NCBI GenBank assembly: GCA_016872835.1 | Contig: VGYX01000012.1 | Location: forward strand, 27,065 to 91,064 | DNA from: Planctomycetota bacterium | GTDB lineage: Bacteria; Planctomycetota; Phycisphaerae; Phycisphaerales; SM1A02 | Reading direction: 5' to 3' | Length of the DNA: 64,000 nucleotides | Shown here: piece after piece, positions 27,439-44,606 of the stretch | Layout of the letters: every line of letters begins with the position of its first letter | Numbering within the stretch: the first letter of the stretch is position 1 | Translations under genes and position numbers: made by a program | The notes under the pieces: model-generated | What the model saw: only the letters and a program-made list of their open reading frames with translations | Told to the model about the DNA's origin: nothing | Databases searched by the model: none

Positions 27439-28350
27439 TCACCAGTTCGGCCACGTCGCCGGAGGAGGGGGCGCATCATCGCGCTGCACGACGGCCTCGA
27501 TGAAGCCGTAGGGTCGGTCCGCTGCGATGTGCACCTCGTTCGCGTTCCGTTGCCCGAAGGGCGACAGGTCCACCACAAAGTGGTGCTTGTTCGGAAGGCT
27601 GAGGCGCACCGCCGCGATCGCGTCCTGCTGCTTCAACACCGCTTCGCCCATCGCGAACAGCGTCTGCTGCAGCGACAGGCTGTAGTGATCCGCGTAGACC
27701 GCGAGCATCGTGTCCATCGCGGTGCGGTGACTGGTCGCCCAGTCGACGCCGTCGAGTTTCGATGGGTCGCACGTGCTCCAGCGCCAGCAGGCGGTGACCT
27801 CGGTCGCCATGATGCGATCGTCGGTCTCCTTGAGGGTGGTGAATGCGTCGCGCAGATAGCCCTTGAAGGCGCTGTCGCCGGTCTTCAGCACCACAAGCTT
27901 CTCCAGACCGCTCGTGACCCACGCGCGCAGGCTCGCCCCTTCGCGGCTCGCGCGCACCGTCGCCGTGCGCACGTGCGAGCCATCGCGGCGGAATGCGCGC
28001 GGGTGCGGCTTGCCCTTGCTCACGATGCGCTGCCAGGGGTACTGCTCGATACGGATCTCGGCGCCCGAGACATACTGCTGCGTGCCGATGAAATGCCGAG
28101 CCAGCGCGATGCCGAAGGCCTCCGGCTCGAGCGGTCCGAGCTTGTGTGACAGCGCGAACACCGTGTTCTTCTGCGTGTCCGTGGGCAGCACCTTCGCGTT
28201 GTCGCCGGTCAGGTGCGTCTCGGTGAAATCGCCCATGAGCTGCACCGAGACGTTCAGGTCCAGGATCTCGTGCGTGTCGCCCTGGCGTGTGATGCGGAAG
28301 ACACGGTTTTCCGCCTTGCCGTAGCGGTTCTCGCCGAGCACGATCGCCAT
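27439..28350 (-). CDS. pucL: factor-independent urate hydroxylase (uricase)
   Basis: GENRYGKAENRVFRI; DFTETHLTGDNAKVLPTDTQKNTVFAL; QYPWQRI; LVVLKTGDSAFKGYLRDAFTTLKETDDRIMATEV; LSLPNKHHFVVDLSPFG. Confidence 0.95.
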   Translation of the reverse strand: MAIVLGENRYGKAENRVFRITRQGDTHEILDLNVSVQLMGDFTETHLTGDNAKVLPTDTQKNTVFALSHKLGPLEPEAFGIALARHFIGTQQYVSGAEIRIEQYPWQRIVSKGKPHPRAFRRDGSHVRTATVRASREGASLRAWVTSGLEKLVVLKTGDSAFKGYLRDAFTTLKETDDRIMATEVTACWRWSTCDPSKLDGVDWATSHRTAMDTMLAVYADHYSLSLQQTLFAMGEAVLKQQDAIAAVRLSLPNKHHFVVDLSPFGQRNANEVHIAADRPYGFIEAVVQRDDAPPPPATWPNW

Positions 28351-28352
28351 GA

Positions 28353-28700
28353 TCAGCTTCCTCGGTAGGTGCTGTAGCCGAAGGGGCTCAGCAGCAGGGG
28401 TACATGGTGGTGGCGTGACGCGTCGGTCACCTCGAACTCGATCGAGACGCTCGGAAAGAAGCCCTTCGTGCCACGGGCGGCGCGCCAGGTGCCGGTGTTG
28501 AAGGTGAGGCGGAAGATGCCGACGGAGAGCGGCGCGGAGCCGAGCACCGTCTTGATGCGGCCATCGGCGTCGGTCGCGCCGCCGCCGACTTCCTTCCAAT
28601 GATCGCCATCGCGTCGCTCGCAGCGAACCTGCATGCCCGCGGCGGGAAGGCCAGTGGCGGTGTCGAGCACATGGGTCGAGAGTCCGTGGGAAGCGCTCAC
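28353..28700 (-). CDS. uraH: 5-hydroxyisourate hydrolase (transthyretin-like)
   Basis: LSTHVLDTATGLPAAGMQV; TDADGRI; FFPSVSIEFEV; HHHVPLLLSPFGYSTYRGS. Confidence 0.96.
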   Translation of the reverse strand: MSASHGLSTHVLDTATGLPAAGMQVRCERRDGDHWKEVGGGATDADGRIKTVLGSAPLSVGIFRLTFNTGTWRAARGTKGFFPSVSIEFEVTDASRHHHVPLLLSPFGYSTYRGS

Positions 28701-28742: not shown

Positions 28743-31700
28743 ATGCGGTGGTACCTTCGCAAGATGCCTGAACGCGACCACATGGAGCATGACGCGCCCA
28801 TGTACCGCGACTTCCTCTCCGATGCATGGATGGCGCACCTGCTCGCGCGGAGTACGCCTGTTCCGGGGGTGGATGGCCTTCGGCAGGTGGGTACGTGCGC
28901 GGGGCTCGAATCGCGTGAGGCGCTCGAGTTCCTGCGTGACCTGCATGATGCGGTGAAGCACGATCTGCGCCGCGTGCTGGAGCGTCGCTCGACCGATCGC
29001 GCCTTCATCGATGAGCGCACCCGCGCCTGCGTGGCCCTGAACCGAGATCTTGGAATCGGTTTCCGCGACGCCGACTACCAGACGGTCATCGGCATGCAGG
29101 ACGGCGACGGCCGCACGGTGATCGGGCCGCTGCGTGCGGACTACGCCGAGGCGCACGGGCAGGCCCCGATCGCGCCGGTTCCGGCGTTCCTGCAGGGTCA
29201 TCATGTCACGCTGTTCGGCCCGCCCGATGACGCCAAGCTCTCGATCAACGCGATGAACGCGTTCCATCGGCGCATCGAAGGGGAGCCTGCGATCGTGGAG
29301 GAACTGCTGCGCGACAGCGGGGCGGTCGCCATGTGGGGCGCCGATGACGAGGATTCGAAGACGCCGCTGCGCGCCGATCTGGTGCAGGCGGGGGAAAATC
29401 TGACCGGCTGCCTGCGCGGAGACATCGCGTGCACCGACGCACGCACGGGGCGCACCTATGCGCTCGCTGCCGATCGGCGCTCGCGACCGATCAAGCGCTT
29501 CCCGGGCCTCGCGCTTCCGTGCACCTTCCTGTTCCGTGGCGGCAATCCTGTGCCGCTGCACCTGTACGACTTCGCGCTGCATCTCTTCGCGAACTGGCGC
29601 AACCCCCAGGCGCTCGCGTTCTACGCGCCCAAGTTGGAGAACGACGAGGAGGCCACGTACCTCGCGGGCATGCTGCGTCACGCCGAACGGCTGCTGCAGG
29701 CGCGCGAGCCCGCGTATCGTACGGGTGGTGTCCGGCTGCTGATCGTGCTCGAGAACCCGCGCGCGGTGTTCCGCCTGAACGAGATCATCGACGCGCTGCA
29801 CCCGTACTTCGCCGGGGCCTCGCTCGGTTGGCACGACTACCTCGCCAGCACGGCGCGCCTGATGAAGGAGGACCCGAACTACCGCATTCCGGTGAAGGCT
29901 GATCCGGAGATCGTGATCAAGCACATCAAGGCCTCGCATGAGCTGCTGGCGCGCGTGGTGCACCCGCGCGGCGGCATCTCGATCGGCGGCATGTACGGCG
30001 TGCTGCCGAGCGAGAACCGCATCGGGAGCGAGTCGTTCCAGGTGGCGATCCGCGGATTCCTGCGTGACGTGTTCACGCAGCTCAAGCGCGGTCTCGACGG
30101 CTTCTGGGTGGCGCATCCCGACTTCGTGCGGCTCGGCTTGGCATTGGTCGAGGGATGGAAGCGGCTGCAGGCCGGCGACCATGGGCCGATCGAGGCGCTG
30201 GTGCGTGGCCTGCTGGCTGCGAAGCATCAGCAGCTGATGCTTGACTTCATCCATGGGCCCGACATCGCGAGCCTTGACCGCGCCGATCCGCTCTATGCAC
30301 GTGCGTTGCTCGCCGCCGATCGACCAACAAGCGATTGCATTTCCAATGACGATCCCGAGGAGGTTCGCTACAACTGCTTCCAGTGCCTGCAGTACCTGGC
30401 CGACTGGCTCTGCGGCAACGGGTGCGTGGCGCTTCCAGCGGCGATCGATGGCGTGCCGGTGCGTGTGATGGACGATCTGGCCACCACGGAGCGCTCGCGC
30501 TGGGAGGTCTGGCACGAGGTGCGACATGGGCGTGTGACCGTCGAGCAGCTCGTGCGCATCGCGCACGAGGAGATGCACTTCATCCAGAAGGACCGCACGG
30601 CGCCTGGCAAGGCGGTGCAGGTGAAGTGGGACGACCGCACGCGCGGCTGGTACCCGGTGGCGATGCACCTGATGCTGCAGTTGATGACCGCCGAGCGGCC
30701 GGTCGAGTTTGCGAGCGAGCTTTTGTTGCCCTTCACCGTGGATTCGGTGCGTGTCGCGCCGGATCCGCTCGTGGCTGCGGCGGCGGTGGAGCCCGCGAAG
30801 TACGCGTTGAGCCGCAGGATGTCGCGTTGTCATGCGGCGTTCACGGCGTGTGGTGCGCAGGCTTTCGTGCGTGCGCTTGTCGACCTGCCCGTGCTTGATC
30901 TGGACGCGGCCAAGCGCGCGGTGATGGCGTTCTCGGTCGATGACGTGAACGAGGCCGCCGGCTTCCACGGCGACATTGGTGAGCGGCGCACCACGCTCGA
31001 TGCCCGCGCCGCGCAGGAGCAGGCGGGCGTGGCAGGGGAGGCCGAGGCCGTGCAGTCGCGCCTGCGCGAGCTCGGCGCGCGATATCGCGAGAAGTTCGGC
31101 TTCAAGTTCCTGATCGCCGCCAAGGGCAAGTCGGGTGCCGAGATGCTCGGGGCGCTCGAGGCGCGGCTGGCCGGTACGCCGATGCAGGAACTGCAGCATG
31201 CACGCGAGGCGCTCTGGACGATCGCGAAGCAGCGATTGATCGCGTTCGGCGCCGATGGGGTGATCGATCGTGTGCGGGAGGCGTGTACCCGTCATGGGGT
31301 GCGTGGACTGTCGGCCTGCGTGAGCGCGCCGGGGTGCGCACCGCAGTCGATCGTGTTCGGCGACCGGGAGCCTGGCGAGCCGGTCACGGCCGACACCGCG
31401 TTCGAGATCGCCTCGCTCAGCAAGACGATCGGATCATGCTTCGCGATCGAGCACTTCCGAAGTGCGGGAATCGGGCTCGATGCGTCCGTGCAGCCACTCC
31501 TTGCGGCGTGCGGAGGCGACTTCCGACTTCGTTCGCTCGATGCCACGCATGCGGAGTGGGCCGATCAGGTGCAACTCGCGCACCTGATGCGCCACGAGGC
31601 GCTCAACATGCACTACGTGAACGGCGTGCCGGCGAATCGGCCGATGCCGCCAGTCGCCGAACTGTTGCCCGGCAACGCGGCGTGGCGCTACGAGCCTGTC

Positions 31701-33467
31701 GGTGTGGCGAACGAGCCTGGCACGCGCTTCGCGTACTCGGGCGGTGGTTTCATGGTGCTCGAGCATCTCGTGCAGCGGCGCGTGGGCATGCCGATCCATG
31801 AGGCAACACGGCCGTTCCTCGAGGCGCTCGGCATGCGGCACACCTCCTTCGAGCAGGTGGAGGCGCCTTTGCCGGAGATCGCGAAGTGTTTCCGCGATGA
31901 CGGATCGATGATCGACGGCGGGCGCCTGCTCTTTCCCGGGTTCGCCGCCGGCGCCGTTTCGACGCCCGCCGATGTGGCCCGGTTCCTCCGCACGCTCACG
32001 CAGGCTTTCCATCGCGTGGAAGGCTGCGGCCCCATCTCGCACGACACCGCGGTGCGCATGCTGCACGGCGTGGATCGTGGCAGTCGCGTGTTCATGGGCT
32101 GCGACATGGGTCTCGGCGTGTTCATCGTGGAAGCGGGAGCCAACCGCTTCGCCGTGCACCAAGGAGCCAACGACGGCTGCCGCGCGCTGTTCGCGCACTG
32201 CTTCCATGGGCCCGATGCCGGATGCGGCGTGGTGATCTGCGCCAGCGGCGAGGAGCGCGCCGTCGCGTGCATCGCCGAGGTGGCGCGAACGTTGCTTCAG
32301 CATCTTGGCGTGCGCGGCGTCGACTGGTCGCGCCTTGGCGATGGCATGGTGGCGGCCAATACGCCGCCTGAGCAGCGCGTGAACATCGGCTACCGCGAGT
32401 CGCTGTTCCGCGCATTCGAGCCGGATCTCGCGGAGGTCATTGTGCAGCGCGGTCCGCTGGATCCGCTCGCCCGCTTCAACTTCGTCGTCGGTGCCACGAT
32501 CGAGAGCGTCTCCAACCAGCGATTCGCGCGCGCCGAGAATCTGCTCTCGCCCCATGAACCCGTGTTCGATCCTGCGCTCTTCGGCAAGCAGGGCAAGGTG
32601 ATGGACAGCTGGGAGACGGTTCGCCACAACCCACTCGGTCGCGACACGCTTGTGCTGCGGCTGGCGAAGCCGGCGAAGATCTCGCTCGTGGCCGTTTCGA
32701 CACGCTTTCATAATGGCAATCAGGCACAGGCGATCGAGTTGGAGGGCTTTCACGAGCGTGCCGGCGTCTGGAAGCCAATCCTTGCACGCATGCCGCTGCA
32801 GGGTCACGCCATGCATGTGGCGCCCACGCGCATCTTCAACGAAACCTTCGAGCGCGTTCGCCTCACGATGTTCCCGGACGGGGGCGTCACGCGGCTCGGG
32901 CTCTTCGGTGCCGACCTTCCCGCAACCGAGCGCGAGCGTCTGCTCGCCTCGCCGTGCGTCCCGTTCCCCGCGTTCGACGCGCAGACCCGCAAGCCGCTCA
33001 TGCCGAAGTTCGTGGGCGTGCCGCGTGCCCCATCGGCGGGATGCAACCTTGCCAGCGCCGCCTTCGGTGCCCGCGTCGTCGCCGCGAGCAACGAGCACTA
33101 TGGTCCCGCAGCGCAGGTGATCTCGCCCTTCCCGCCACTGCACATGTTCGACGGCCTCGAGAGCGCGCGCAGTCGCGAGCCCGGGCACAGCGAGCATGTC
33201 ACGATCGCGCTTGCCCGCGCCGCACCCATCGGTCGCATCCGCATCGACTTCACGCACTTCGTGAACAACAATCCGCGCGAACTTCAGGTGGAAGGTCGTA
33301 CGGGCGGTGCCTGGATCACGCTCGTTCCGCGCACGCCGGTGAAGGCCTACGCCGGCAATGCCACGGAGTGGCTGGTGCACGAATCGGCCGTCTGCGACCA
33401 GATCCGCGTGACCGCGTACCCTGACGGCGGCATGAATCGTGTCCATGTCTTCGAGGCTGGCGCATGA
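28743..33467 (+). CDS. four-domain purine-catabolism fusion: malate synthase - OHCU decarboxylase - serine beta-lactamase-like hydrolase - allantoicase
   Basis: Single uninterrupted ORF. Malate synthase: LLIVLENPRAVF...LGWHDYLAS...HPRGGISIGGMYGVLP...RYNCFQCLQYLADWLCGNGCVAL...VMDDLATTERSRWEVW. OHCU decarboxylase: GFHGDIG...QEQAGVAG...YREKFGFKFLIAAKGKSGAEML. Serine hydrolase: FEIASLSKT (SxxK), YSGGGFMVLEHLV, VHQGANDG. Allantoicase: two copies including GKVMDSWETVRHN...FHNGNQAQAIELEG...PDGGVTRLGLFG and NLASAAFGARVVAASNEHYGPA...FVNNNPRELQVEG...PDGGMNRVHVFE. Start uncertain (28743 or 28764). Confidence 0.92.
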   Translation: MRWYLRKMPERDHMEHDAPMYRDFLSDAWMAHLLARSTPVPGVDGLRQVGTCAGLESREALEFLRDLHDAVKHDLRRVLERRSTDRAFIDERTRACVALNRDLGIGFRDADYQTVIGMQDGDGRTVIGPLRADYAEAHGQAPIAPVPAFLQGHHVTLFGPPDDAKLSINAMNAFHRRIEGEPAIVEELLRDSGAVAMWGADDEDSKTPLRADLVQAGENLTGCLRGDIACTDARTGRTYALAADRRSRPIKRFPGLALPCTFLFRGGNPVPLHLYDFALHLFANWRNPQALAFYAPKLENDEEATYLAGMLRHAERLLQAREPAYRTGGVRLLIVLENPRAVFRLNEIIDALHPYFAGASLGWHDYLASTARLMKEDPNYRIPVKADPEIVIKHIKASHELLARVVHPRGGISIGGMYGVLPSENRIGSESFQVAIRGFLRDVFTQLKRGLDGFWVAHPDFVRLGLALVEGWKRLQAGDHGPIEALVRGLLAAKHQQLMLDFIHGPDIASLDRADPLYARALLAADRPTSDCISNDDPEEVRYNCFQCLQYLADWLCGNGCVALPAAIDGVPVRVMDDLATTERSRWEVWHEVRHGRVTVEQLVRIAHEEMHFIQKDRTAPGKAVQVKWDDRTRGWYPVAMHLMLQLMTAERPVEFASELLLPFTVDSVRVAPDPLVAAAAVEPAKYALSRRMSRCHAAFTACGAQAFVRALVDLPVLDLDAAKRAVMAFSVDDVNEAAGFHGDIGERRTTLDARAAQEQAGVAGEAEAVQSRLRELGARYREKFGFKFLIAAKGKSGAEMLGALEARLAGTPMQELQHAREALWTIAKQRLIAFGADGVIDRVREACTRHGVRGLSACVSAPGCAPQSIVFGDREPGEPVTADTAFEIASLSKTIGSCFAIEHFRSAGIGLDASVQPLLAACGGDFRLRSLDATHAEWADQVQLAHLMRHEALNMHYVNGVPANRPMPPVAELLPGNAAWRYEPVGVANEPGTRFAYSGGGFMVLEHLVQRRVGMPIHEATRPFLEALGMRHTSFEQVEAPLPEIAKCFRDDGSMIDGGRLLFPGFAAGAVSTPADVARFLRTLTQAFHRVEGCGPISHDTAVRMLHGVDRGSRVFMGCDMGLGVFIVEAGANRFAVHQGANDGCRALFAHCFHGPDAGCGVVICASGEERAVACIAEVARTLLQHLGVRGVDWSRLGDGMVAANTPPEQRVNIGYRESLFRAFEPDLAEVIVQRGPLDPLARFNFVVGATIESVSNQRFARAENLLSPHEPVFDPALFGKQGKVMDSWETVRHNPLGRDTLVLRLAKPAKISLVAVSTRFHNGNQAQAIELEGFHERAGVWKPILARMPLQGHAMHVAPTRIFNETFERVRLTMFPDGGVTRLGLFGADLPATERERLLASPCVPFPAFDAQTRKPLMPKFVGVPRAPSAGCNLASAAFGARVVAASNEHYGPAAQVISPFPPLHMFDGLESARSREPGHSEHVTIALARAAPIGRIRIDFTHFVNNNPRELQVEGRTGGAWITLVPRTPVKAYAGNATEWLVHESAVCDQIRVTAYPDGGMNRVHVFEAGA

Positions 33468-33940
33468 CTGACCATCAGCGACAGGCCTTGATGCGCCGTG
33501 CCATCCACTTGAGCGCGGAGAACGTGCAGCGAGGTGGCGGTCCCTTTGGCGCAGTGATCGTGCGGGATGGCACGATCGTGGGGGAGGGCTTCAACCGCGT
33601 CACAGCATCGAATGATCCGACGGCGCACGCCGAAATGGTTGCCATACGCGAGGCATGCAGGCACCTGAAGACCTTCACGCTCGCGGGTTGCGAGATCTAC
33701 ACCAGTTGTGAGCCCTGTCCGATGTGCCTGAGCGCGATCTACTGGGCGCGTCTCGACCGCATCTGGTTCGCCAACACCAAGGTCGACGCCGCTGAGATCC
33801 AGTTCGACGATCACTTCATCTACGACGAGCTCGCCAAGGATGTGGCGCACCGCACCATCCCGATGCGGGGCATGCTCCGCGACGAGGCTCTCGCCGTCTT
33901 CCGGGATTGGCAGGCGAACGCTTCGCGTATCCGATATTGA
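33464..33940 (+). CDS. guaD: guanine deaminase (CDA-fold)
   Basis: GPFGAVIVRDG; NDPTAHAEMVAIREAC; TSCEPCPMCLSAIYWARLDRIWFANTKVDAAEIQFDDHFIYDEL; 4-nt overlap with the fusion gene. Confidence 0.88.
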   Translation: MTDHQRQALMRRAIHLSAENVQRGGGPFGAVIVRDGTIVGEGFNRVTASNDPTAHAEMVAIREACRHLKTFTLAGCEIYTSCEPCPMCLSAIYWARLDRIWFANTKVDAAEIQFDDHFIYDELAKDVAHRTIPMRGMLRDEALAVFRDWQANASRIRY

Positions 33941-33967: not shown

Positions 33968-35437
33968 ATGCGTGACTACGCGCTGCTGCATGTGAACGGC
34001 GTGCCACGCGAGGTGAGAGGCCGCGAGGCGCTCATGATGCTCGCCACCTGGCTTCGCAAGGAGGCCGGCCTTCCGGGCACGAAGATCGTCTGTGCGGAGG
34101 GTGACTGTGGCGCCTGCACGGTGCTGCGCGCCTTCGACACCCCCGGTACGGAGTCGTTGGACGCGCCCTTCGAGGTGATGAATTCCTGCATCGCGATCGT
34201 TGCGCAGATGGATGGCGCGCACATCGTCACCGTCGAGGGCATGCAGGATGGCGACGCGCTCGCGCCGGCGCAGGAAGCCATGCGGCGCTGCCACGGGAGC
34301 CAGTGCGGTTTCTGCACGCCCGGCTTCGTGATGGCGCTCAGCGGCATGCTTGAACAGCACGGTGGTGTGGCCGTCGAGCGCAAGGTCGCCGCGAATCACC
34401 TCACGGGCAACCTCTGCCGATGCACCGGATACGAACCGATCCTCGAGGCCGCTTGCACCGTGCGCACCTCGCCGCGCCATGTCGTCGGACCGCGCTACGG
34501 AACACGCGAGCGTCGTGAGCGTGCGCGTGCCGCGATGCAGGACGGGCTGCAGATCGAGCATGACGGCGTCCGATTCGCGGCTCCGACCTCGCTGCGCGAG
34601 GCGTGCGCCTTCGTGGCCGCGCACCCGGGCTGCCGGGTCGTCGGCGCCTCCACGGATCTTGGCGTCCCGATCAACAAGGGTCGCCCGATGCCTGAGGCGC
34701 TGCTGAGCCTGCACCTGATCCCCGAACTGCATGAGGCGCGGCTCACGCGATCGGAAGTCGTGGTGGGTGCGCGCGTGCCGCTGGCGAAGGTGCGGCACCT
34801 CTGCGAGCAGGCTGCGCCCGAGTTCGCGCGCTTCCTGAATCTCTTCGCGTCGCCGCAGATCAAGAACGTGGCCACGCTGGTCGGCAACATCGCGACCGGC
34901 TCGCCGATCGGCGACACGCTGCCGTTCCTGCTCGTCTCGAACGCGATGGTGCACGTGGCAAGCAGGCCGGGCGGTCGCGGCGCGGTGCAGCGGCGCGAGA
35001 TCCCGATGACGAGGCTTTACCGCGGCTACCGCCAGCTTGCGCTGGAGCCTGGCGAGCTGATCACGCACGTCTCGTTCGAGCGAACCCGTCCCAAGGAGGT
35101 CGTGCGTCTGTTCAAGGTCTCGCAGCGCAAGGATCTCGACATCAGCACGGTGAGCGCCGCCTTCGCGCTCACGCTGGCCGGCCCGCGCACGAAGGGAAGC
35201 CGGCAGGTCACCGAGGCGCGGGTCGCGCTGGGCGGCGTGGCCGCCACGCCGATCCGGCTGCCCGAAGTCGAGAAGGCGCTCGTCGGAACCCTTGATGCGG
35301 CACGGATCGAGCCGATCGCCGCGCTGATCGGGCGCGCCATCGCACCGCTGAGTGACGTGCGGGGCACGGCCGCCTATCGCACGATGCTGGCCGCGAACCT
35401 GTTCCGCCAGTTCGCGCAGGAGTTGCTCGATGGCTGA
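33968..35437 (+). CDS. xdhA: xanthine dehydrogenase small subunit (2Fe-2S and FAD domains)
   Basis: CAEGDCGACTVL; CHGSQCGFCTPGFVMAL; NLCRCTGYEPILEAA; FAD domain VVGASTDLGV..KNVATLVGNIATGSPIGD. Confidence 0.95.
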   Translation: MRDYALLHVNGVPREVRGREALMMLATWLRKEAGLPGTKIVCAEGDCGACTVLRAFDTPGTESLDAPFEVMNSCIAIVAQMDGAHIVTVEGMQDGDALAPAQEAMRRCHGSQCGFCTPGFVMALSGMLEQHGGVAVERKVAANHLTGNLCRCTGYEPILEAACTVRTSPRHVVGPRYGTRERRERARAAMQDGLQIEHDGVRFAAPTSLREACAFVAAHPGCRVVGASTDLGVPINKGRPMPEALLSLHLIPELHEARLTRSEVVVGARVPLAKVRHLCEQAAPEFARFLNLFASPQIKNVATLVGNIATGSPIGDTLPFLLVSNAMVHVASRPGGRGAVQRREIPMTRLYRGYRQLALEPGELITHVSFERTRPKEVVRLFKVSQRKDLDISTVSAAFALTLAGPRTKGSRQVTEARVALGGVAATPIRLPEVEKALVGTLDAARIEPIAALIGRAIAPLSDVRGTAAYRTMLAANLFRQFAQELLDG

Positions 35438-37853
35438 TCGCGCCGAGAGCGAGACGCCCCGCGTGGGTGCCGCGGTGCTGCCGGATCCCGGTTCGGTGCC
35501 GCACGATTCGGCGACCACGCATGTCACCGGTCGCAGCGAGTATGTGGACGACCGTCCGATGCTGCGCGGGGAACTGCTGTGTGGCATCGTCTACAGCCCG
35601 CACGCGCGCGCGCGCCTGACACGACTGGATCTTTCGGCCGCGCTCGCGGTGCCGGGTGTGGCCTGCGCCGTGACGGCCGCCGACGTGGCGCACAACCTGT
35701 GGGGCAGCATCATCGTGGACCAGCCGCTGCTCGTGGAGCAGGAGGCCCAGTACGCCGGCGAGGTGGTCGCTGTCCTTGCCGCCGAGAGCCGCGAGTCGCT
35801 GGCGAAGGCCATGCGTGCGGTGCGTGTGGAATGGGAGAAGCTTCCGGCGATCCGCTCGATCGATCAGGCGGTGGCGGCGGGCGCGTTCATCGGTGCCGAG
35901 CGCTCCATCGCCCGCGGAGACGCTGACGCTGCGCTTGCCGCGGCGCCTCACCGTCTCTCCGGCACGGTCGTGATCGAGGGCGCCGATCATTTTTATCTGG
36001 AGAGCCAGGCGGCGATCGCCTACCCGCGCGCGGACGGGCCGATGGAGGTGCATTCGTCCACACAGCATCCGACCGAGACGCAGCATGTGGTGGCGGAGGC
36101 CATCGGCGTTCCCTTCAACGAAGTCGTCTGCATCGCGCGCCGGCTGGGTGGAGGTTTCGGCGGCAAGGAGTCGCAGGCCGCGCCCATCGCCGCCTACGCC
36201 GCGCTCGTGGCCCGCAAGACCGGCCGTCCCGCGCGTCTTGCGATCAGCAAGGACGACGACATGATCATCACGGGCAAGCGCAACCCGTTCCAGATCCGAT
36301 ACGAGGTCGGATTCGACGGCGAAGGGCGGTTGCTCGCGCTGAAGGCCCAACTCCACTCGGATGGCGGCGCCTACGCCGATCTTTCCACGGCGATCATGGA
36401 GCGCGCGCTGCTCCACAGCGACAACGCCTATTGCATCCCCGACATGCACGTGCGCGGGCAGGTCTGCCGAACGAATCACCACCCACACACGGCATTCCGC
36501 GGTTTCGGGGGCCCGAAGGGAGTGGCCATGATCGAGTCGGTGATCGAGGACGTCGCACGGACCTTGGGTCGTGACGCGCTCGATGTCCGCAAGCGCAACG
36601 TGTACGCGCCCGGCCGCGACACCACGCACTACGGTCAGAAGGTCGAGAACAACTGTCTTCCCGCGCTGTTCGAGTCGCTCGAGGCGCGGTGCGACTACCG
36701 CCGCCGGCGCGAGGACATCACGAAGTGGAACGCCGACCGCTCGAGCAACCCACGCGGGCTCTCCATGACGGCGGTGAAGTTCGGCATCTCGTTCACCACC
36801 CGCTTCCTGAATCAGGCGAACGCGCTGGTGAACGTGCATCGGGATGGCACGGTGCAGGTGTCGACGGGCGCGGTCGAGATGGGGCAGGGGGTGAACACGC
36901 GCATCGCCGCGATCGTGGCCGAGCGCCTCGGCGTGCCGATCGGTGCGGTGCGGGTGATGGTCACCTCGACCGAGAAGAACGCGAACACCTCGCCCACCGC
37001 CGCGAGCGCGGGCACCGACCTGAACGGCGCTGCCGCGGCCGCCGCGTGCGATCGCATCTGTGCGCGACTGGCGAACCTTGCGCTGCATCTGCGTGACCTG
37101 CCGCCCGAGCGCTGGCCCTCGCGTACCGCGGGGCTCGGCACCCAGCCCGAGGCGCAGGTCACCGACCACCCGCCCGCTGAGCCGGTGCGTTTCGAGGCTG
37201 GCCGCGTGCATGCCGGTCCGTTCTCGATCGCCTTCGCCGACCTCGCCCGCGAGGCGTGGCTCAGCCGCATCTCCATCTGCGAATATGGTCATTTCGCCAC
37301 GCCAGATCTGGGCTTCAACAAGCTCACGGGCCAGGGCCGTGCCTTCCTCTATTACACGCAGGGGGTGGCGGCCAGCGAGGTGGAGATCGATCGCTTCTCC
37401 GGCGAGGTGAAGGTTCGCCGCGTGGACCTGCTGATGGACATGGGCCGCCCGATCAACCATGCGCTCGATGTCGGGCAGGTGACGGGCGGCTTCGTGCAGG
37501 GGATGGGATGGGTCACCACCGAGCATCTCTTCTACAACGCCGATGGTCTGCTCGTGTCGCACTCGCCGAGCACCTACAAGATCCCGAGCATCCAGGACAC
37601 GCCGCGCGTCTTCAACGCGCATCTTGTCTTCAACGAGGGCAACGCCGCGAACATCCGAGGCACGAAGGCCGCGGGCGAGCCGCCGCTGCTGCTGTCGCTC
37701 TCGGTCTGGACGGCGATCCGTGACGCGGTCATGAACGCGCGCGCGGCCCGCTCTGGGGGTCGTGACCTTGTTCCAATGGCCATCCCAGCCACCGCCGAGC
37801 GCGTGCTGCGCGCGCTTGAGCCTGAAGCCTTCGCCGCCATCGAGACGCGCTGA
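35430..37853 (+). CDS. xdhB: xanthine dehydrogenase molybdopterin-binding subunit
   Basis: RLGGGFGGKESQ; HTAFRGFGGPKG; GAVEMGQGVNTRIAAIVA; GTKAAGEPPLLLSLSVW. Confidence 0.95.
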   Translation: MADRAESETPRVGAAVLPDPGSVPHDSATTHVTGRSEYVDDRPMLRGELLCGIVYSPHARARLTRLDLSAALAVPGVACAVTAADVAHNLWGSIIVDQPLLVEQEAQYAGEVVAVLAAESRESLAKAMRAVRVEWEKLPAIRSIDQAVAAGAFIGAERSIARGDADAALAAAPHRLSGTVVIEGADHFYLESQAAIAYPRADGPMEVHSSTQHPTETQHVVAEAIGVPFNEVVCIARRLGGGFGGKESQAAPIAAYAALVARKTGRPARLAISKDDDMIITGKRNPFQIRYEVGFDGEGRLLALKAQLHSDGGAYADLSTAIMERALLHSDNAYCIPDMHVRGQVCRTNHHPHTAFRGFGGPKGVAMIESVIEDVARTLGRDALDVRKRNVYAPGRDTTHYGQKVENNCLPALFESLEARCDYRRRREDITKWNADRSSNPRGLSMTAVKFGISFTTRFLNQANALVNVHRDGTVQVSTGAVEMGQGVNTRIAAIVAERLGVPIGAVRVMVTSTEKNANTSPTAASAGTDLNGAAAAAACDRICARLANLALHLRDLPPERWPSRTAGLGTQPEAQVTDHPPAEPVRFEAGRVHAGPFSIAFADLAREAWLSRISICEYGHFATPDLGFNKLTGQGRAFLYYTQGVAASEVEIDRFSGEVKVRRVDLLMDMGRPINHALDVGQVTGGFVQGMGWVTTEHLFYNADGLLVSHSPSTYKIPSIQDTPRVFNAHLVFNEGNAANIRGTKAAGEPPLLLSLSVWTAIRDAVMNARAARSGGRDLVPMAIPATAERVLRALEPEAFAAIETR

Positions 37854-37854
37854 C

Positions 37855-38670
37855 ATGGCTGCGCCCGTGCACGACTACCTGCATCACGCCTCGCGCCTCG
37901 CGGAGCGCGGCGTCGCGTTCATCACGGTCACGCTCGTGCAGCCCGAGGGCCATGTGCCGCAGGACATCGGGGCGAAGGCGATCATCACGGCCGAGGGTCT
38001 CGCGTGGGGCACGGTGGGGGGCGGTCGCCTTGAGGCCGCGGCGATCGACCACGCCAGGGGCATGCTTGCCCGCGCCACCGACGGCGCCGGTGTGCCCCAG
38101 CCCGTCGCGCCCGAACTCGTGCGCTACGAACTCGCCCGTGACCTGAACATGGTGTGCGGTGGCGCCGCGTCGCTGTTCTACGAGGTCGCCACCGCGGCCA
38201 CCTGGAACATCGTGGTGTTCGGGGCGGGTCATGTGGCGCAGGCGACCGTGGGGCTGCTTGCCACGTTCCACTGCAATCTCACCTGCATCGATCCGAGACA
38301 GGAATGGCTCGCGCGCCTCGCGCCTCGCCCGAACCTCCGCACGGTGCTCGTGCCGGAGCCCGCGGAGGCCGTGACCGCCTTGCCGGCTGGCGCCTTCGTG
38401 CTCTGCATGACCCAAGGTCATGCCACCGACTTGCCGATCGTGCGCGAGCTGCTGCGTGCGGGGACGGCCCGCTTTATCGGCGTGATAGGCAGCGAACCCA
38501 AGGCACGAACCATGCGCAGCGCGCTTCTGAAGGAGGGCTTCGCCGAGGCCGCCGTCGTCGCCATTCGCTGTCCGCTGGGGCTTGCGATCGGCTCGAACGC
38601 ACCCGCGGAAATCGCGGTCAGCATCGCCGCGCAGCTGCTGCAGGTGCGTGACACGTCCGCCGCGTCCTGA
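37855..38670 (+). CDS. xdhC: xanthine dehydrogenase accessory protein XdhC
   Basis: GTVGGGRLEAAAI; NMVCGGAASLFYE; VVFGAGHVAQA; DPRQEWLARL; MTQGHATDLPIV; IGVIGSEPKA. Confidence 0.93.
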   Translation: MAAPVHDYLHHASRLAERGVAFITVTLVQPEGHVPQDIGAKAIITAEGLAWGTVGGGRLEAAAIDHARGMLARATDGAGVPQPVAPELVRYELARDLNMVCGGAASLFYEVATAATWNIVVFGAGHVAQATVGLLATFHCNLTCIDPRQEWLARLAPRPNLRTVLVPEPAEAVTALPAGAFVLCMTQGHATDLPIVRELLRAGTARFIGVIGSEPKARTMRSALLKEGFAEAAVVAIRCPLGLAIGSNAPAEIAVSIAAQLLQVRDTSAAS

Positions 38671-38707
38671 TCGTCACCTGAGCCGCGACATGCGGCGGGT
38701 TGCCCGG

Positions 38708-38713
38708 TACCAT
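38708..38713 (+). promoter_or_regulatory. putative -10 element of the RND operon (TACCAT-6nt-ATG)
   Basis: 6-nt spacing to ATG 38720. Confidence 0.4.
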
Positions 38714-38719
38714 CCCGCG

Positions 38720-40267
38720 ATGCTTCGGCACTTGTGGTCCGCACCAGAACGATGGCTGGCGATCCTCGTCGCGGGCGTCGTGGCGGGCTGCATGGTGGGC
38801 CCCGACTACACGCGACCCGAGCCGCTGCTGCCACAGGCGTTCAAGACTCCCGAGCCGGCGCAGGTGCGTGTCGATGCTGACGCGGACCTGAACGATTGGT
38901 GGAAGCGCTTCAACGACTCCAAGCTCGACGAGCTGATCGAGCGGGCACAGAGGGGCAACATCACCCTTATGCAGGCGGGTGTGAGCATCGCTCAGTACCG
39001 CAGCGGATACGGCATCAGCTACAGCCAGCTCTTCCCGAGCCTCGATCTCGGTTCCAACTACAACTACTCCCTGTTCAACACCGCCCAGGTCGGCGCCGAC
39101 ACGCCTTCCGCCCCGTTCAACCAGTGGGGCTACGGCGTGCGGATCGCCAGCTGGGAGATCGACCTGTTCGGCAAGATCCGTCGCGGCATGGAGGCCTCGC
39201 AGGCCCGGCTGCAGGCGAGCGTGGAAGGCTGGCGGCTCGCGATCGTGAGCCTTCGCGCCGAGGTGGCGACCTCGTACCTCACGATCCGCACGCTGCAGGC
39301 GCAGCGGGACCTCGCGGTTCGCAACGTCGACCTGCTGCAGCAGATCTACGACGCCACGAAGGCGAAGTACAAGGCCGGCACCGCCTCGCAGATCGATCTC
39401 AGCGAATCGGCGGCGCAGCTCGCGACCTCGAAGGCCACCGTGCCCAAGCTCGAGGCCGCCATCAAGACCCAGTGCAACGGCCTCAGCGTGCTGCTGGGCG
39501 AGGCCCCTGGGCCCATGCAGGACGAACTTGCCGCGAGCGCCCCGATTCCGCTGATCGAGGGCGAGACCGCGATCGGCATTCCGAGCGACCTGCTGCGACG
39601 CCGCGCCGATGTGCTGCAGGCGGAACGGCTGCTCATGGCCGCCACGGCCGAGATCGGCGTGGCCGAGGCCGGTTACTACCCCGACCTGCGCCTGAACGGC
39701 ACGTTCGGCATCGCCGCCACGGACTTCTCGGGCCTCGGCGACATCATGAACCAGACCTACACGGTTGGTCCGACCCTTACCTGGAACTTCTTCAATGGCG
39801 GGTTGGTCACCAGCCAGGTCCAGTTGAAGCGGGCGGTGGCACTGGGTTCGGCGCTGCAGTGGCGGCAGGCCCTGCTCAACGCCGCCGGCGAGGTGCAGAG
39901 CGCCATCGACAACTACGCGGGTGCCCGTCTGCAGGTGAAGGCGTACACCGACACGCTCAGTGACATGAAGAACGTCTACGACCTGGCCCTGTCGCGCTAC
40001 AAGGCGGGCACGATCAACATCACGCAGCTGCTGCAGCTGGCCCAGTACGTTCTGGAAGCTGAGAACGGCTACGCGCAGGCGCGCGGCCTCACCTCGCAGA
40101 ACCTCGTGGGCCTGTATCGAAGCCTCGGCGGGGGATGGGAGAGCGTGCAGGTGCCCGCCGCCGGCGACGACGCCTTCGAGAAGGACGGTCCCGACATGTG
40201 GAAGAAGCAGCCGAAGTTGCCGAGCGAGAACCCGGCCGCGCCGGCCGATCAGGGAGTGAACGGATGA
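38720..40267 (+). CDS. NodT-family outer-membrane efflux lipoprotein
   Basis: lipobox VAGCMVGPDYTRP; IASWEIDLFGKIRRGMEASQA; GIPSDLLRRRADVLQAERLL; YPDLRLNGTFGI. Confidence 0.95.
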   Translation: MLRHLWSAPERWLAILVAGVVAGCMVGPDYTRPEPLLPQAFKTPEPAQVRVDADADLNDWWKRFNDSKLDELIERAQRGNITLMQAGVSIAQYRSGYGISYSQLFPSLDLGSNYNYSLFNTAQVGADTPSAPFNQWGYGVRIASWEIDLFGKIRRGMEASQARLQASVEGWRLAIVSLRAEVATSYLTIRTLQAQRDLAVRNVDLLQQIYDATKAKYKAGTASQIDLSESAAQLATSKATVPKLEAAIKTQCNGLSVLLGEAPGPMQDELAASAPIPLIEGETAIGIPSDLLRRRADVLQAERLLMAATAEIGVAEAGYYPDLRLNGTFGIAATDFSGLGDIMNQTYTVGPTLTWNFFNGGLVTSQVQLKRAVALGSALQWRQALLNAAGEVQSAIDNYAGARLQVKAYTDTLSDMKNVYDLALSRYKAGTINITQLLQLAQYVLEAENGYAQARGLTSQNLVGLYRSLGGGWESVQVPAAGDDAFEKDGPDMWKKQPKLPSENPAAPADQGVNG

Positions 40268-41409
40268 TGACGCACCCACGACGCCTTCTCGCCTCGGCCC
40301 TGTTCGGCGCGCTCGCCGCGTGCGGCCAGCAGCCGCCACCCGCGCGCCCCGAGGGTGTCCCTGTGACCACCGTGGCCGTCGCTAAGCGCGACGTCCGGAT
40401 GCGGATGAACTACCCCGGCATCATCACCTCGCCGCGCGGCATCCAGCTCGTGGCGCGCGTGCCGGGCTTCCTGCTCAAGCAGGGCACCGCCGACGGCGCG
40501 GTCACGAAGCCCGGCGACGTGATCTACCGCATCGACCCGCGGCAGTACGAGGCCGCGGTGCTCGCCGCCGAGGGCAAGCTTGCCGAGGCGACGGCGCAGC
40601 GCAACTACGCCAAGCTCGAGCGCGACCGCAACGAGCCGCTCGTGAAGCAGAACGCGATCAGCCAGCAGATGTTCGACGACCTCGTGACCAAGTACGAGTC
40701 GGCGCAGGGCCAGATGGAAGTGGCACAGGCGCAGCTCGTGAACGCGAAGCTCGACCTCTCGTACTGCACGGTCAGCAGCCCCTTCGCTGGCGTGCTGGGG
40801 CCCAGCGCCTACTTCGAGGGCGCCGTCGTGGGCGAGGCGAACACGCGCAACCTGAACACGCTGGTGCAGATCGACCCGATGTGGGTGCAGTTCAGCCCCT
40901 CGTCCAAGGAATGGCCGCGCTTCCAGGAGTTGATGGCCAAGGGCAGCTTGCCCGTGCAGCTCACCACCGACGGTGACCGGCCGGCGAAGGCCTCGGGCCG
41001 CCTGATCTTCGCCGACAACCAGGTCTCCACCAGCACGAGCACGCTCATGCTGCGTGCGGAGTTCCCGAACGCCTCGGGCGCCTTCCGGCCCGGCGCCTAC
41101 GCCAACGTCACCGTGGACGTCGGCGACCTCGGCGACTGCCTCGTGCTGCCGGAGCGTGCCGCGTTCGCGCGCCTCTCCGACATCTTCGTCTGGCGCGTGA
41201 AGTCCGACGACACCGTCGAGTCGGTCTCGATCAAGCCCATCAAGGTGGAGGATGGTGACCTCGCCTTCACCAGCACGCTGCAGGTCGGCGACCGCATCGT
41301 GGTCGACGGCATCCAGCGCCTGAAGGCGGGCAGCAAGATCATCGACACCGGCGCGCAGGCCGCCAAGCCTGCTCCGGCCGCGCCTGCCGCGACGGGAGCC
41401 GCGAAGTAA
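40264..41409 (+). CDS. RND efflux periplasmic adaptor (MFP)
   Basis: lipobox ALAAC; PGIITSPRGIQLVARVPGFLLKQ; YRIDPRQYEAAVLAAEGKLAEA; CTVSSPFAGVLG. Confidence 0.95.
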   Translation: MMTHPRRLLASALFGALAACGQQPPPARPEGVPVTTVAVAKRDVRMRMNYPGIITSPRGIQLVARVPGFLLKQGTADGAVTKPGDVIYRIDPRQYEAAVLAAEGKLAEATAQRNYAKLERDRNEPLVKQNAISQQMFDDLVTKYESAQGQMEVAQAQLVNAKLDLSYCTVSSPFAGVLGPSAYFEGAVVGEANTRNLNTLVQIDPMWVQFSPSSKEWPRFQELMAKGSLPVQLTTDGDRPAKASGRLIFADNQVSTSTSTLMLRAEFPNASGAFRPGAYANVTVDVGDLGDCLVLPERAAFARLSDIFVWRVKSDDTVESVSIKPIKVEDGDLAFTSTLQVGDRIVVDGIQRLKAGSKIIDTGAQAAKPAPAAPAATGAAK

Positions 41410-41432
41410 GGCCCCGGGGCCCGAACGCAGCC

Positions 41433-44400
41433 ATGGTGCGCTTCTTCATCCATCGTCCGATCTTCGCCAGCGTGATCGCCATCATCACGGCGCTCGCCGG
41501 CGCGATCGCCATGGTGATCCTGCCCATCGCGCAGTTCCCGAACGTGGTGCCGCCGACGGTGCAGGTGAACAGCACCTACAACGGCGCCGACGCGCTCACC
41601 GTGGCCAACTCGGTCACCATGCCGCTCGAGAACCAGATCAACGGCGTCGAGGGCATGCTGTACATGTCCTCGAACAGCACCAACAATGGCACGTCGAACA
41701 TCACGGTCACGTTCGAGGTGGGCTACGACCTGAACATCGGCGCGGTCGACGTGCTCAACCGCGTGCAGTCGGCCATGCCGCAGCTGCCGCAGGCCGTGCA
41801 GAACCTCGGCGTCACGATCAACAAGCAGTCGACCAACCTCACGGTGGTCGTCTCGCTGCTCTCGCCGGACGGATCCTACGACAGCACCTTCCTGTCGAAC
41901 TACGCCAACGCCATCGTGCAGCCCGTGCTCAGTCGCGTGGACGGTGTGGGCAACATCACCATCTTCGGCCTGCTGCAGTACAGCATGCGCGTGTGGCTCG
42001 ATCCCGCGCGCCTCACCGCGATGAACCTGTCGCCGCAGGACGTGGCGAGCGCGGTCTACGACCAGAACCAGCAGGCCGCGATCGGCAGCGTGGGCGCAGC
42101 GCCCACCGTGGGCTCGCCAAGCTTCAACCTGATGCTCACGACCAAGGGGCGCCTCGTCTCGGCCAAGGACTTCGAGGACATCGTCGTGCGCACCGGCGCC
42201 GACGGCGCCATCGTGCGGGTGTCCGATGTCGGCCGCGTGGAGCTGGGCGCGTACCAGTACAGCAGCACCTCGAGCCTCAATGGCGGAAGCACCGGCGCGC
42301 TGGGCATCTACCAGCTGCCCACCGCCAACGCCTACGACGTGGTGGAGAAGATCGAGGAGCAGATGCGCCGGCTCGAACCGCTGCTGCCGCCCGGCGTGAA
42401 GTGGCAGGTCACCTACGACAGCACCAAGTTCGTCTCGGCCTCGATCGAGGAACTCATCAAGACGCTCGTGGAGGCAGGCCTGCTGGTGCTGGCCGTGATC
42501 TTCATCTTCCTGCAGAGCGGGCGTGCCACGCTGATCCCGATGATCGCGATCCCGGTCTCGATCGTGGGCACCTTCGCCGTCATGGCGGCGGCCGGTTTCA
42601 GCATCAACACCCTCACGCTGCTCGGCCTCGTGCTCGCGATCGGCCTGGTGGTCGACGACTCGATCATCGTGGTGGAGAACGTGTACCGGCAGCTCGAACT
42701 CGGCGCGCCGAACGGCGTGGTCGCCGCCGAGCGGGCCATGAAGGAAGTGGCGGGACCGATCGTCGCGACGAGCAGCGTGCTGCTGGCGGTGTTCATCCCG
42801 GCGTCGCTCATGCCCGGCATCACCGGCCAGCTGTACAACCAGTTCGCCCTGACGATCGCGTTCAGCATCGCGCTGAGCATGGTGAACTCGCTCACGCTCT
42901 CGCCGGCGCTCTGCGCGGTGTTCCTGCAGAAGCCGCACGAGACGAAGTTCAAGCCCTTCGTGCTGTTCAACCAGGGCTTCGACTGGGCGACCCACAAGTA
43001 CTCCACCCTCGTGCGTTGGCTCGCGCACCGCTGGTGGATCATCGCGGTGGCGTTCCTGTTGGGCGCCATCGGCGTGTTCCAGCTGCTCGAGCGCACGCCG
43101 ACCGCGTTCATCCCGAACGAGGACCAGGGCTACTACTTCGTGGGCGTGCAGCTGCCGCCGGGATGCAGCCTGGAGCGCACGGAAGCCGTCAGCAAGAAGG
43201 TGCTTGAGATCGTCCGGCAGGATCCCGCCGTGGTGGACGTGATCGAGAACAACGGCTTCAACGTCATGACGTACGTCACGCAGACCAACGCGGCGTTCAT
43301 CATCGTGGTGCTGAAGCCGTGGGACGAGCGCGATCCGTTCACGGAGAACGCCCGCGCCATCCTCCAGCGCACGGCACCAAAGCTGCTCTCGATCCCCGAG
43401 GGCATCGCGATGCCATTCCCGCCGTCCCCGATCCCGGGCCTCGGCACGGTCGCTGGCTGGCAGGTGCAACTCGAGGACGTGAGCGGGCAGGGCTTCAACT
43501 TCCTGGCCGGTGCCGCGAACGACCTCATGGAGGCTTTGCAGAAGCGGCCCGAGGTCGCGGGCCTGAACACGCCGTTCCAGTCGCAGGTGCCCATGGTGCG
43601 CATCAAGGTCGACCGTACCAAGGCCATGAACTATGGCCTGAACATGAGCGACATCTTCGCCGCCATGGGTCAGACGCTGGGGCAGTCGTTCATCAACAAC
43701 TTCAACGAGTTCAACCAGGTCTACAACGTGATGGTGCAGGCCGACGCGACCAGCCGCATGCGCCTGAGTGACGTGTTCAAGCTGTACGTGCGGAACAAGA
43801 GTGGCGGCATGGTGCCCCTGAGCACCTTCGCCGACTTCGAGTTCATCGTCGGCACCGACAACGCCACACGCTACAACCTCTACAACACGATCCAGCTCAA
43901 CGGCTCCACCGGCCCTGGCCACGGCTCGGGTGACGCCATCAAGGCGGTCGAGGAGGAGTGCGCGCGCGTGCTGCCCGATGGCGTCACCTATGAGTGGACC
44001 GGCACCACCTATCAGCAGATCGAGGCGGGCAACTATGCGCCTTTCGTCTTCATCATGGCGATCGTGGCGGTCTTCCTACTGCTCGCCGCGCTCTACGAGA
44101 GCTGGATCCTTCCGCTGAACGTGCTGCTGGCGGTCACCTTCGCCGTGCTCGGCGCCCTGGTGTTCATGCACATCCGGGAGCGCGCGCTCGACGTGTACGC
44201 GCAGATCGGCATGGTCATGCTCGTCGGCCTCGCTGCGAAGAACGCCATCCTGATCGTGGAGTTCGCCAAGATGCGCTATGACCAGGGCGAGTCGGTCATC
44301 GACGCTGCGGTGAACGCCTCGCACCAGCGACTGCGGCCCATCATGATGACGGCCATCGCCTTCATCCTGGGCATCGCGCCGCTCGTGGTGGCCGTGGGCG

Positions 44401-44606
44401 CCGGCGCCAACAGCCGGCAGTCGATCGGCACCACCGTCATGGGCGGCATGATCGGATCGGCGACCTTCGACCAGCTCGTGGTGCCGGTGTTCTTCGTGAT
44501 GATCGTGGGCTTCGCCGCGCGTCACGGTCTCGTGAAGCGCATGCCGCACGGCGAGCCGACCATCAAGGCAGGCCCGGGCGAGACGCCACCGCCGGCCGCG
44601 CACTGA
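41433..44606 (+). CDS. RND (HAE1-family) multidrug efflux permease
   Basis: MVRFFIHRPIFASVIAIITALAGAIA; GLVVDDSIIVVENVYRQLE; GLAAKNAILIVEFAK. Confidence 0.97.
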   Translation: MVRFFIHRPIFASVIAIITALAGAIAMVILPIAQFPNVVPPTVQVNSTYNGADALTVANSVTMPLENQINGVEGMLYMSSNSTNNGTSNITVTFEVGYDLNIGAVDVLNRVQSAMPQLPQAVQNLGVTINKQSTNLTVVVSLLSPDGSYDSTFLSNYANAIVQPVLSRVDGVGNITIFGLLQYSMRVWLDPARLTAMNLSPQDVASAVYDQNQQAAIGSVGAAPTVGSPSFNLMLTTKGRLVSAKDFEDIVVRTGADGAIVRVSDVGRVELGAYQYSSTSSLNGGSTGALGIYQLPTANAYDVVEKIEEQMRRLEPLLPPGVKWQVTYDSTKFVSASIEELIKTLVEAGLLVLAVIFIFLQSGRATLIPMIAIPVSIVGTFAVMAAAGFSINTLTLLGLVLAIGLVVDDSIIVVENVYRQLELGAPNGVVAAERAMKEVAGPIVATSSVLLAVFIPASLMPGITGQLYNQFALTIAFSIALSMVNSLTLSPALCAVFLQKPHETKFKPFVLFNQGFDWATHKYSTLVRWLAHRWWIIAVAFLLGAIGVFQLLERTPTAFIPNEDQGYYFVGVQLPPGCSLERTEAVSKKVLEIVRQDPAVVDVIENNGFNVMTYVTQTNAAFIIVVLKPWDERDPFTENARAILQRTAPKLLSIPEGIAMPFPPSPIPGLGTVAGWQVQLEDVSGQGFNFLAGAANDLMEALQKRPEVAGLNTPFQSQVPMVRIKVDRTKAMNYGLNMSDIFAAMGQTLGQSFINNFNEFNQVYNVMVQADATSRMRLSDVFKLYVRNKSGGMVPLSTFADFEFIVGTDNATRYNLYNTIQLNGSTGPGHGSGDAIKAVEEECARVLPDGVTYEWTGTTYQQIEAGNYAPFVFIMAIVAVFLLLAALYESWILPLNVLLAVTFAVLGALVFMHIRERALDVYAQIGMVMLVGLAAKNAILIVEFAKMRYDQGESVIDAAVNASHQRLRPIMMTAIAFILGIAPLVVAVGAGANSRQSIGTTVMGGMIGSATFDQLVVPVFFVMIVGFAARHGLVKRMPHGEPTIKAGPGETPPPAAH

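Follow-up and report, generated by a model that had tools for sequence, protein, structure and literature searches.

One gene in a Planctomycetota genome encodes four domains in a single reading frame, in the order malate synthase, OHCU decarboxylase, serine hydrolase (PF00144) and two-repeat allantoicase. The fusion is real and conserved and is new as far as the open-access literature shows; the sequence-only reading that first pointed it out knew of no described enzyme of such architecture, and no published description was found in the open-access literature either. Judged from sequence, the probability is roughly 0.7 that the protein is a multifunctional enzyme leading from OHCU to malate, in which the serine-hydrolase domain would be an allantoinase for which the DD-peptidase/class C beta-lactamase fold was recruited. 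This reading is built on what is directly observed, i.e., the domains, their catalytic residues and conservation, the gene context, and the exchange between the serine hydrolase and the allantoinase AllB. For the fuller claim, that the domain represents a third, serine-dependent class of allantoinase within a four-domain enzyme holding its intermediates between neighbouring active sites, the odds are slightly better than even.

The gene is embedded in a complete purine block in the window (the whole stretch of 64,000 nucleotides that was analysed), in a host genome of 2.39 Mb that is 98.9% complete. The features of the block are:

27439..28308, minus strand: urate oxidase (uricase, PF01014)
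28353..28700, minus strand: 5-hydroxyisourate (HIU) hydrolase, transthyretin-like (PF00576), divergently oriented relative to the fusion gene
28743..33467, plus strand: four-domain fusion gene, 1,574 amino acids, recognised by Pfam domains and recurrence in other genomes
28920..30812, plus strand: divergent malate synthase domain, residues 60-690, recognised by Pfam, PDB match and GlcB alignment
30813..31256, plus strand: OHCU decarboxylase domain, residues 691-838
31257..32387, plus strand: serine-hydrolase domain, DD-peptidase/class C beta-lactamase fold, candidate allantoinase
32388..33464, plus strand: allantoicase domain, two repeats, residues 1250-1390 and about 1435-1570
33464..33940, plus strand: guanine-deaminase-like protein (PF00383), with a 4-base overlap with the fusion stop codon
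33968..35437, plus strand: xanthine dehydrogenase small/FAD subunit, XdhA type
35424..37853, plus strand: xanthine dehydrogenase molybdopterin subunit, XdhB type
37849..38670, plus strand: XdhC accessory protein

Directly 3′ of the purine cluster (window 38582-44606) there are an outer-membrane efflux protein (PF02321) and then two frames resembling the remaining components of an RND efflux system.

Domains and catalytic residues of the fusion protein

The plus-strand frame from 28743 to 33467 contains no stop, and its 1,574 amino acids are counted from the ATG at 28743. The in-frame start giving the longest open reading frame is at 28599; conservation sets in only near residue 20, and the true start therefore probably lies between 28743 and 28800. 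All four domains exceed the curated Pfam cut-offs, and the sequence matches of the protein in the PDB are malate synthase A, OHCU decarboxylases, beta-lactamases and yeast allantoicase. The sequence-only reading had described one uninterrupted frame with four separable domains; the frame is indeed uninterrupted, Pfam supports four of the four domains, and the boundaries given for them were correct to within about 100 bases. The three C-terminal domains (882 residues) were modelled together with a pTM of 0.91, and a fixed spatial arrangement of them is plausible in this predicted structure.

Conservation was counted over 57 divergent sequences from at least two phyla, with L038, L041 and L045 (other reading frames) excluded. 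In the malate synthase domain, Pfam recognises MS_TIM-barrel (PF01274, residues 255-465, 80 bits) and MS_C (PF20659, residues 539-656, 44 bits); R252, E337, D365 and D578 align with R338, E427, D455 and D631 of E. coli GlcB and are kept in 57 of 57 sequences. These profiles and the Arg/Glu/Asp/Asp set place the domain in the malate synthase family, at a distance from the equivalog malate_syn_A (TIGR01344), against which it scores 140 bits (cut-off 594.5). The fusion holds the sole PF01274 match in the host genome. The OHCU decarboxylase domain (OHCU_decarbox, PF09349, residues 720-832, 85.8 bits against a cut-off of 24) is assigned to its family by profile and by the catalytic His and Glu (H742 and E759, invariant in 57/57), with a score below the TIGR03180 equivalog cut-off; R831 is invariant in 51 aligned rows. 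The allantoicase domain matches PF03561 in two stretches (172 bits together), as expected of the two-repeat family, and aligns with yeast allantoicase 1sg3, scoring under the TIGR02961 cut-off; many of its positions are invariant (51 rows).

The serine-hydrolase domain matches Beta-lactamase (PF00144) over residues 844-1170 with 86.7 bits (cut-off 27), and its predicted structure has a pLDDT of 94. It has an SxxK motif, comprising S891 (31413-31415) and K894 (31422-31424), a tyrosine within YSG (Y998, 31734-31736) and HQG at residues 1139-1141; S891, K894, Y998, H1139 and G1141 are invariant in all 57 sequences. Profile, fold and the SxxK, Y and HxG motifs thus place it in the PF00144 superfamily, and a score of 21.4 bits against 415 for bla_class_C (NCBIfam) sets it apart from true class C beta-lactamases. 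The structural neighbours of the model in the PDB are IS11 esterase, D-amino acid amidase, LACTB, R61 DD-peptidase and AmpC. Folds of this type include amidases and lactam-opening enzymes; the fold alone leaves the substrate unfixed, because esterase and peptidase structures also match the domain. Against 21 generic homologues, in which they are rare or missing, Y958, N1134, Q1140, R1147 and the FM at 1117-1118 stand out as invariant or almost invariant within the fusion clade, and from this pattern they are candidate specificity residues.

Recurrence and ancestry of the fusion

Within the family of the host (151 genomes searched), the fusion was found elsewhere at 52-71% identity, and on complete contigs it is one frame of about 1,585-1,724 amino acids. 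Across Planctomycetota and Bdellovibrionota, dozens of genomes carry the same domain order in a single frame of about 1,540-1,690 amino acids. A wide scan, with the serine-hydrolase domain as query and one genome per species, gave 66 loci carrying this domain, and all 66 have the four-domain order, bar contig-end truncations and a few interrupted copies in metagenome-assembled genomes (MAGs). The loci are assigned to Planctomycetota, Bdellovibrionota and a few Pseudomonadota; in the phylum of genome G543, the domain is present in 69 of 369 genomes. Its identity among fusion genomes is 30-75%. No stand-alone single-domain orthologue was found in another purine cluster among 392 Planctomycetota, the 369 genomes of G543's phylum or the one-per-species scan.

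It is so improbable as to be hardly worth entertaining that assembly has joined separate genes into this frame, or that the gene is a pseudogene in decay. In a few MAGs the copy is interrupted, by an in-frame stop (L080, L093) or a frameshift (L070, L101), which may reflect sequencing error, decay or truly split genes; against them stand dozens of independent genomes with the uninterrupted order and invariant catalytic residues. Because the full frame recurs both in the family and across phyla, the fusion is neither chance nor mis-assembly, and the artefact that the sequence-only reading had itself raised is thereby refuted. Separate trees of the four domains each split Planctomycetota from the rest with support of 97-100, and this agreement fits one origin followed by inheritance as a unit.

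The gene contexts are alike: HIU hydrolase usually adjoins the fusion, xanthine dehydrogenase is often near, and the urate oxidase is of the Uox or the PuuD type. In the two Bdellovibrionota clusters examined, a PuuD-type urate oxidase adjoins HIU hydrolase. The Bdellovibrionota PuuD-type enzymes (Urate_ox_N) at L077:5443-7191 and L091:5482-7182 have a C-terminal carboxypeptidase-regulatory-like domain.

The allantoinase step and competing explanations

OHCU decarboxylase produces allantoin, allantoicase acts on allantoate, and allantoinase is the enzyme that bridges the two. The sequence-only reading had proposed a possible assembly line from a uric-acid intermediate into central carbon metabolism; its domain assignments and the link between urate and malate hold, but as the decarboxylase gives allantoin and the allantoicase needs allantoate, the line misses a step, which had been overlooked. 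The fusion spans all steps from OHCU to malate except that from allantoin to allantoate, and there the serine-hydrolase domain sits. This domain had been correctly recognised as serine beta-lactamase-like and given no role, though of all candidates for the missing allantoinase it is the strongest.

AllB (TIGR03178) over cut-off was found in 0 of 56 fusion genomes, which are mostly MAGs (completeness is given for 14, of which 12 are high-quality). PuuE (TIGR03212, NodB/polysaccharide-deacetylase type) was likewise found in 0 of the 56 and not in the host genome, and the fusion protein itself has no match to TIGR03178 at E up to 1. In the host genome, the only full-length TIGR03178 matches are a dihydropyrimidinase and a dihydroorotase. 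The sub-threshold AllB-like hits that were classified in fusion genomes are dihydropyrimidinase or dihydroorotase, except L151, which is unassigned; for L124, L125 and L128, AllB was rejected, the best NCBIfam match being dihydroorotase PRK09060, over cut-off. The host dihydropyrimidinase (L003:1408-3754) adjoins a beta-ureidopropionase-like gene, a pair that points to reductive pyrimidine breakdown too. Dihydropyrimidinase is carried by many fusion genomes including the host and might act on allantoin; as a general allantoinase it was rejected, since in at least 10 fusion genomes a dihydroorotase is the sole match.

The controls were the 10 other allantoicase-bearing genomes among the 392 Planctomycetota. 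In 9 of the 10, AllB is over cut-off (508-556 bits) and lies directly beside allantoicase, in most cases accompanied by OHCU decarboxylase and HIU hydrolase; the tenth genome is 66% complete and has a partial AllB hit. The contrast of 0/56 with 9/10 gives a Fisher p of 3e-10, to be read with the shared ancestry of the fusion genomes for this gene: as the fusion is seemingly of single origin, the contrast does not represent many independent events. From the exchange it follows that the serine-hydrolase domain occupies the AllB slot, and it is from this gene replacement that we infer its allantoinase activity (EC 3.5.2.5).

AllA (ureidoglycolate lyase) is absent from the 39 fusion genomes searched and from 10 of 10 controls, and ureidoglycolate can decay spontaneously to glyoxylate and urea (PMC3793230). 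Thus, the ureidoglycolate step does not separate the two groups of genomes, and the allantoinase step does. In two relatives, G677 and G678, allantoicase is the only fusion partner of the serine hydrolase; AllA is the adjacent gene in G678, and in G677 a PuuD-type urate oxidase and a malate synthase-like gene of its own lie nearby. Such a pairing suggests that serine hydrolase and allantoicase may form a core unit, as might be expected if the serine hydrolase supplies allantoate to allantoicase. Both relatives have Phe at the position of Tyr998 and Ala at that of Gly1141, and may therefore work differently. The two-domain proteins, at L224:4887-7844 and L223:3013-11122, lie outside the four-domain fusion, one of them beside AllA; near the other are a class V aminotransferase, a one-repeat allantoicase, a malate synthase-like gene and a PuuD-type urate oxidase.

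Could the serine hydrolase handle ureidoglycolate, or a later intermediate, with dihydropyrimidinase or another enzyme opening allantoin? The lack of AllA in fusion genomes and the position of the host dihydropyrimidinase beside a beta-ureidopropionase-like gene would fit this, but the AllB-bearing controls manage without AllA as well, so no replacement is required; ureidoglycolate decays spontaneously; AllA adjoins the serine hydrolase-allantoicase gene in G678; at least ten fusion genomes offer dihydroorotase-type matches only; and the gene lost where the fusion occurs is AllB. A substitute for ureidoglycolate lyase is weakened in particular by the AllA-less controls and by AllA beside the domain in G678, and this explanation is considered unlikely; the domain is probably, on the sequence evidence, an allantoinase and not a ureidoglycolate enzyme. 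It is less likely again that the intact domain serves another substrate (an ester, a peptide or regulatory acylation), or that its main role is that of a scaffold linking the other domains. The esterase, D-amino acid amidase, LACTB and DD-peptidase among its nearest structures and the compact model of the three C-terminal domains would agree with that, yet the Ser, Lys and Tyr kept in every sequence would be superfluous in a pure scaffold, and the close relatives of the domain are confined to the purine architecture, with the allantoinase step otherwise unfilled.

Falling between these two in likelihood, and still doubtful, is the suggestion that the four domains are real but that the malate synthase-like domain forms another product or condenses another keto acid. 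Its low scores against PF01274 and malate_syn_A show how distant it is from known malate synthases; set against this, its four catalytic residues align with those of GlcB and are invariant, allantoicase yields a precursor of glyoxylate, and no other PF01274 protein is found in the host.

If the serine-hydrolase domain is the allantoinase, HIU hydrolase from the neighbouring gene would supply OHCU to the fusion, where the decarboxylase domain would convert it to S-allantoin. Ser891 would then attack the amide carbonyl of the hydantoin ring to form an acyl-enzyme, with Lys894 and Tyr998 acting as bases, and hydrolysis of the acyl-enzyme would release allantoate. Allantoate would be split by the allantoicase domain to urea and ureidoglycolate, the latter would give glyoxylate, spontaneously or via another factor, and the malate synthase domain would condense glyoxylate with acetyl-CoA to malate. 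The covalent mechanism and any channelling are, like the activity itself, deduced; in this scheme the domain would be a non-homologous replacement of the metal-dependent AllB.

Significance and comparison with known systems

To our knowledge, only two unrelated allantoinases are known, AllB and PuuE, the latter reportedly identified through genome context by Ramazzina et al. in 2008. A serine-type allantoinase, if true, would be a third solution; a penicillin-binding fold would have been recruited into central nitrogen metabolism, an apparent pathway gap would be filled in many Bdellovibrionota and one Planctomycetota family, and annotations otherwise reading beta-lactamase would be corrected. 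As one polypeptide ties purine waste to malate, the handling of substrates between four active sites becomes testable.

Like AllB (cyclic amidohydrolase superfamily), the domain is proposed to convert allantoin to allantoate, and it takes the genomic place that AllB has in the controls, next to allantoicase, OHCU decarboxylase and HIU hydrolase; unlike AllB, it has a serine-hydrolase fold, with Ser-Lys-Tyr replacing the binuclear metal centre. PuuE is a non-metal-dependent allantoinase, an unrelated alternative recruited from polysaccharide deacetylases (PMC10967932), and sets a precedent for an enzyme of this activity that is unrelated to AllB. The fusion domain resembles it as a proposed non-homologous, non-metal-dependent replacement of AllB, and differs from it in fold.

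With class C beta-lactamase, R61 DD-peptidase, D-amino acid amidase and IS11 esterase the domain has the PF00144 fold (TM-score by query 0.64-0.74) and the SxxK, YSG and HxG motifs in common, but it is only 14-22% identical to such enzymes, falls far under the beta-lactamase cut-offs, and has its own invariant Y958, N1134, Q1140 and R1147 as well as purine-enzyme fusion partners. The malate synthase domain has the TIM barrel, C-terminal domain and Arg/Glu/Asp/Asp catalytic set of malate synthases A and G (AceB, GlcB), whereas it is only about 25-30% identical to ordinary malate synthases, lies below the malate_syn_A cut-off, and is tied by its gene clusters to purine catabolism, not to isocitrate lyase. 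Other Planctomycetota (e.g. G281 and G216; L182, L183, L189) also fuse allantoicase and OHCU decarboxylase within a purine cluster; in contrast to the four-domain fusion, their domain order is reversed, neither serine hydrolase nor malate synthase is fused, and AllB is a separate gene beside them.
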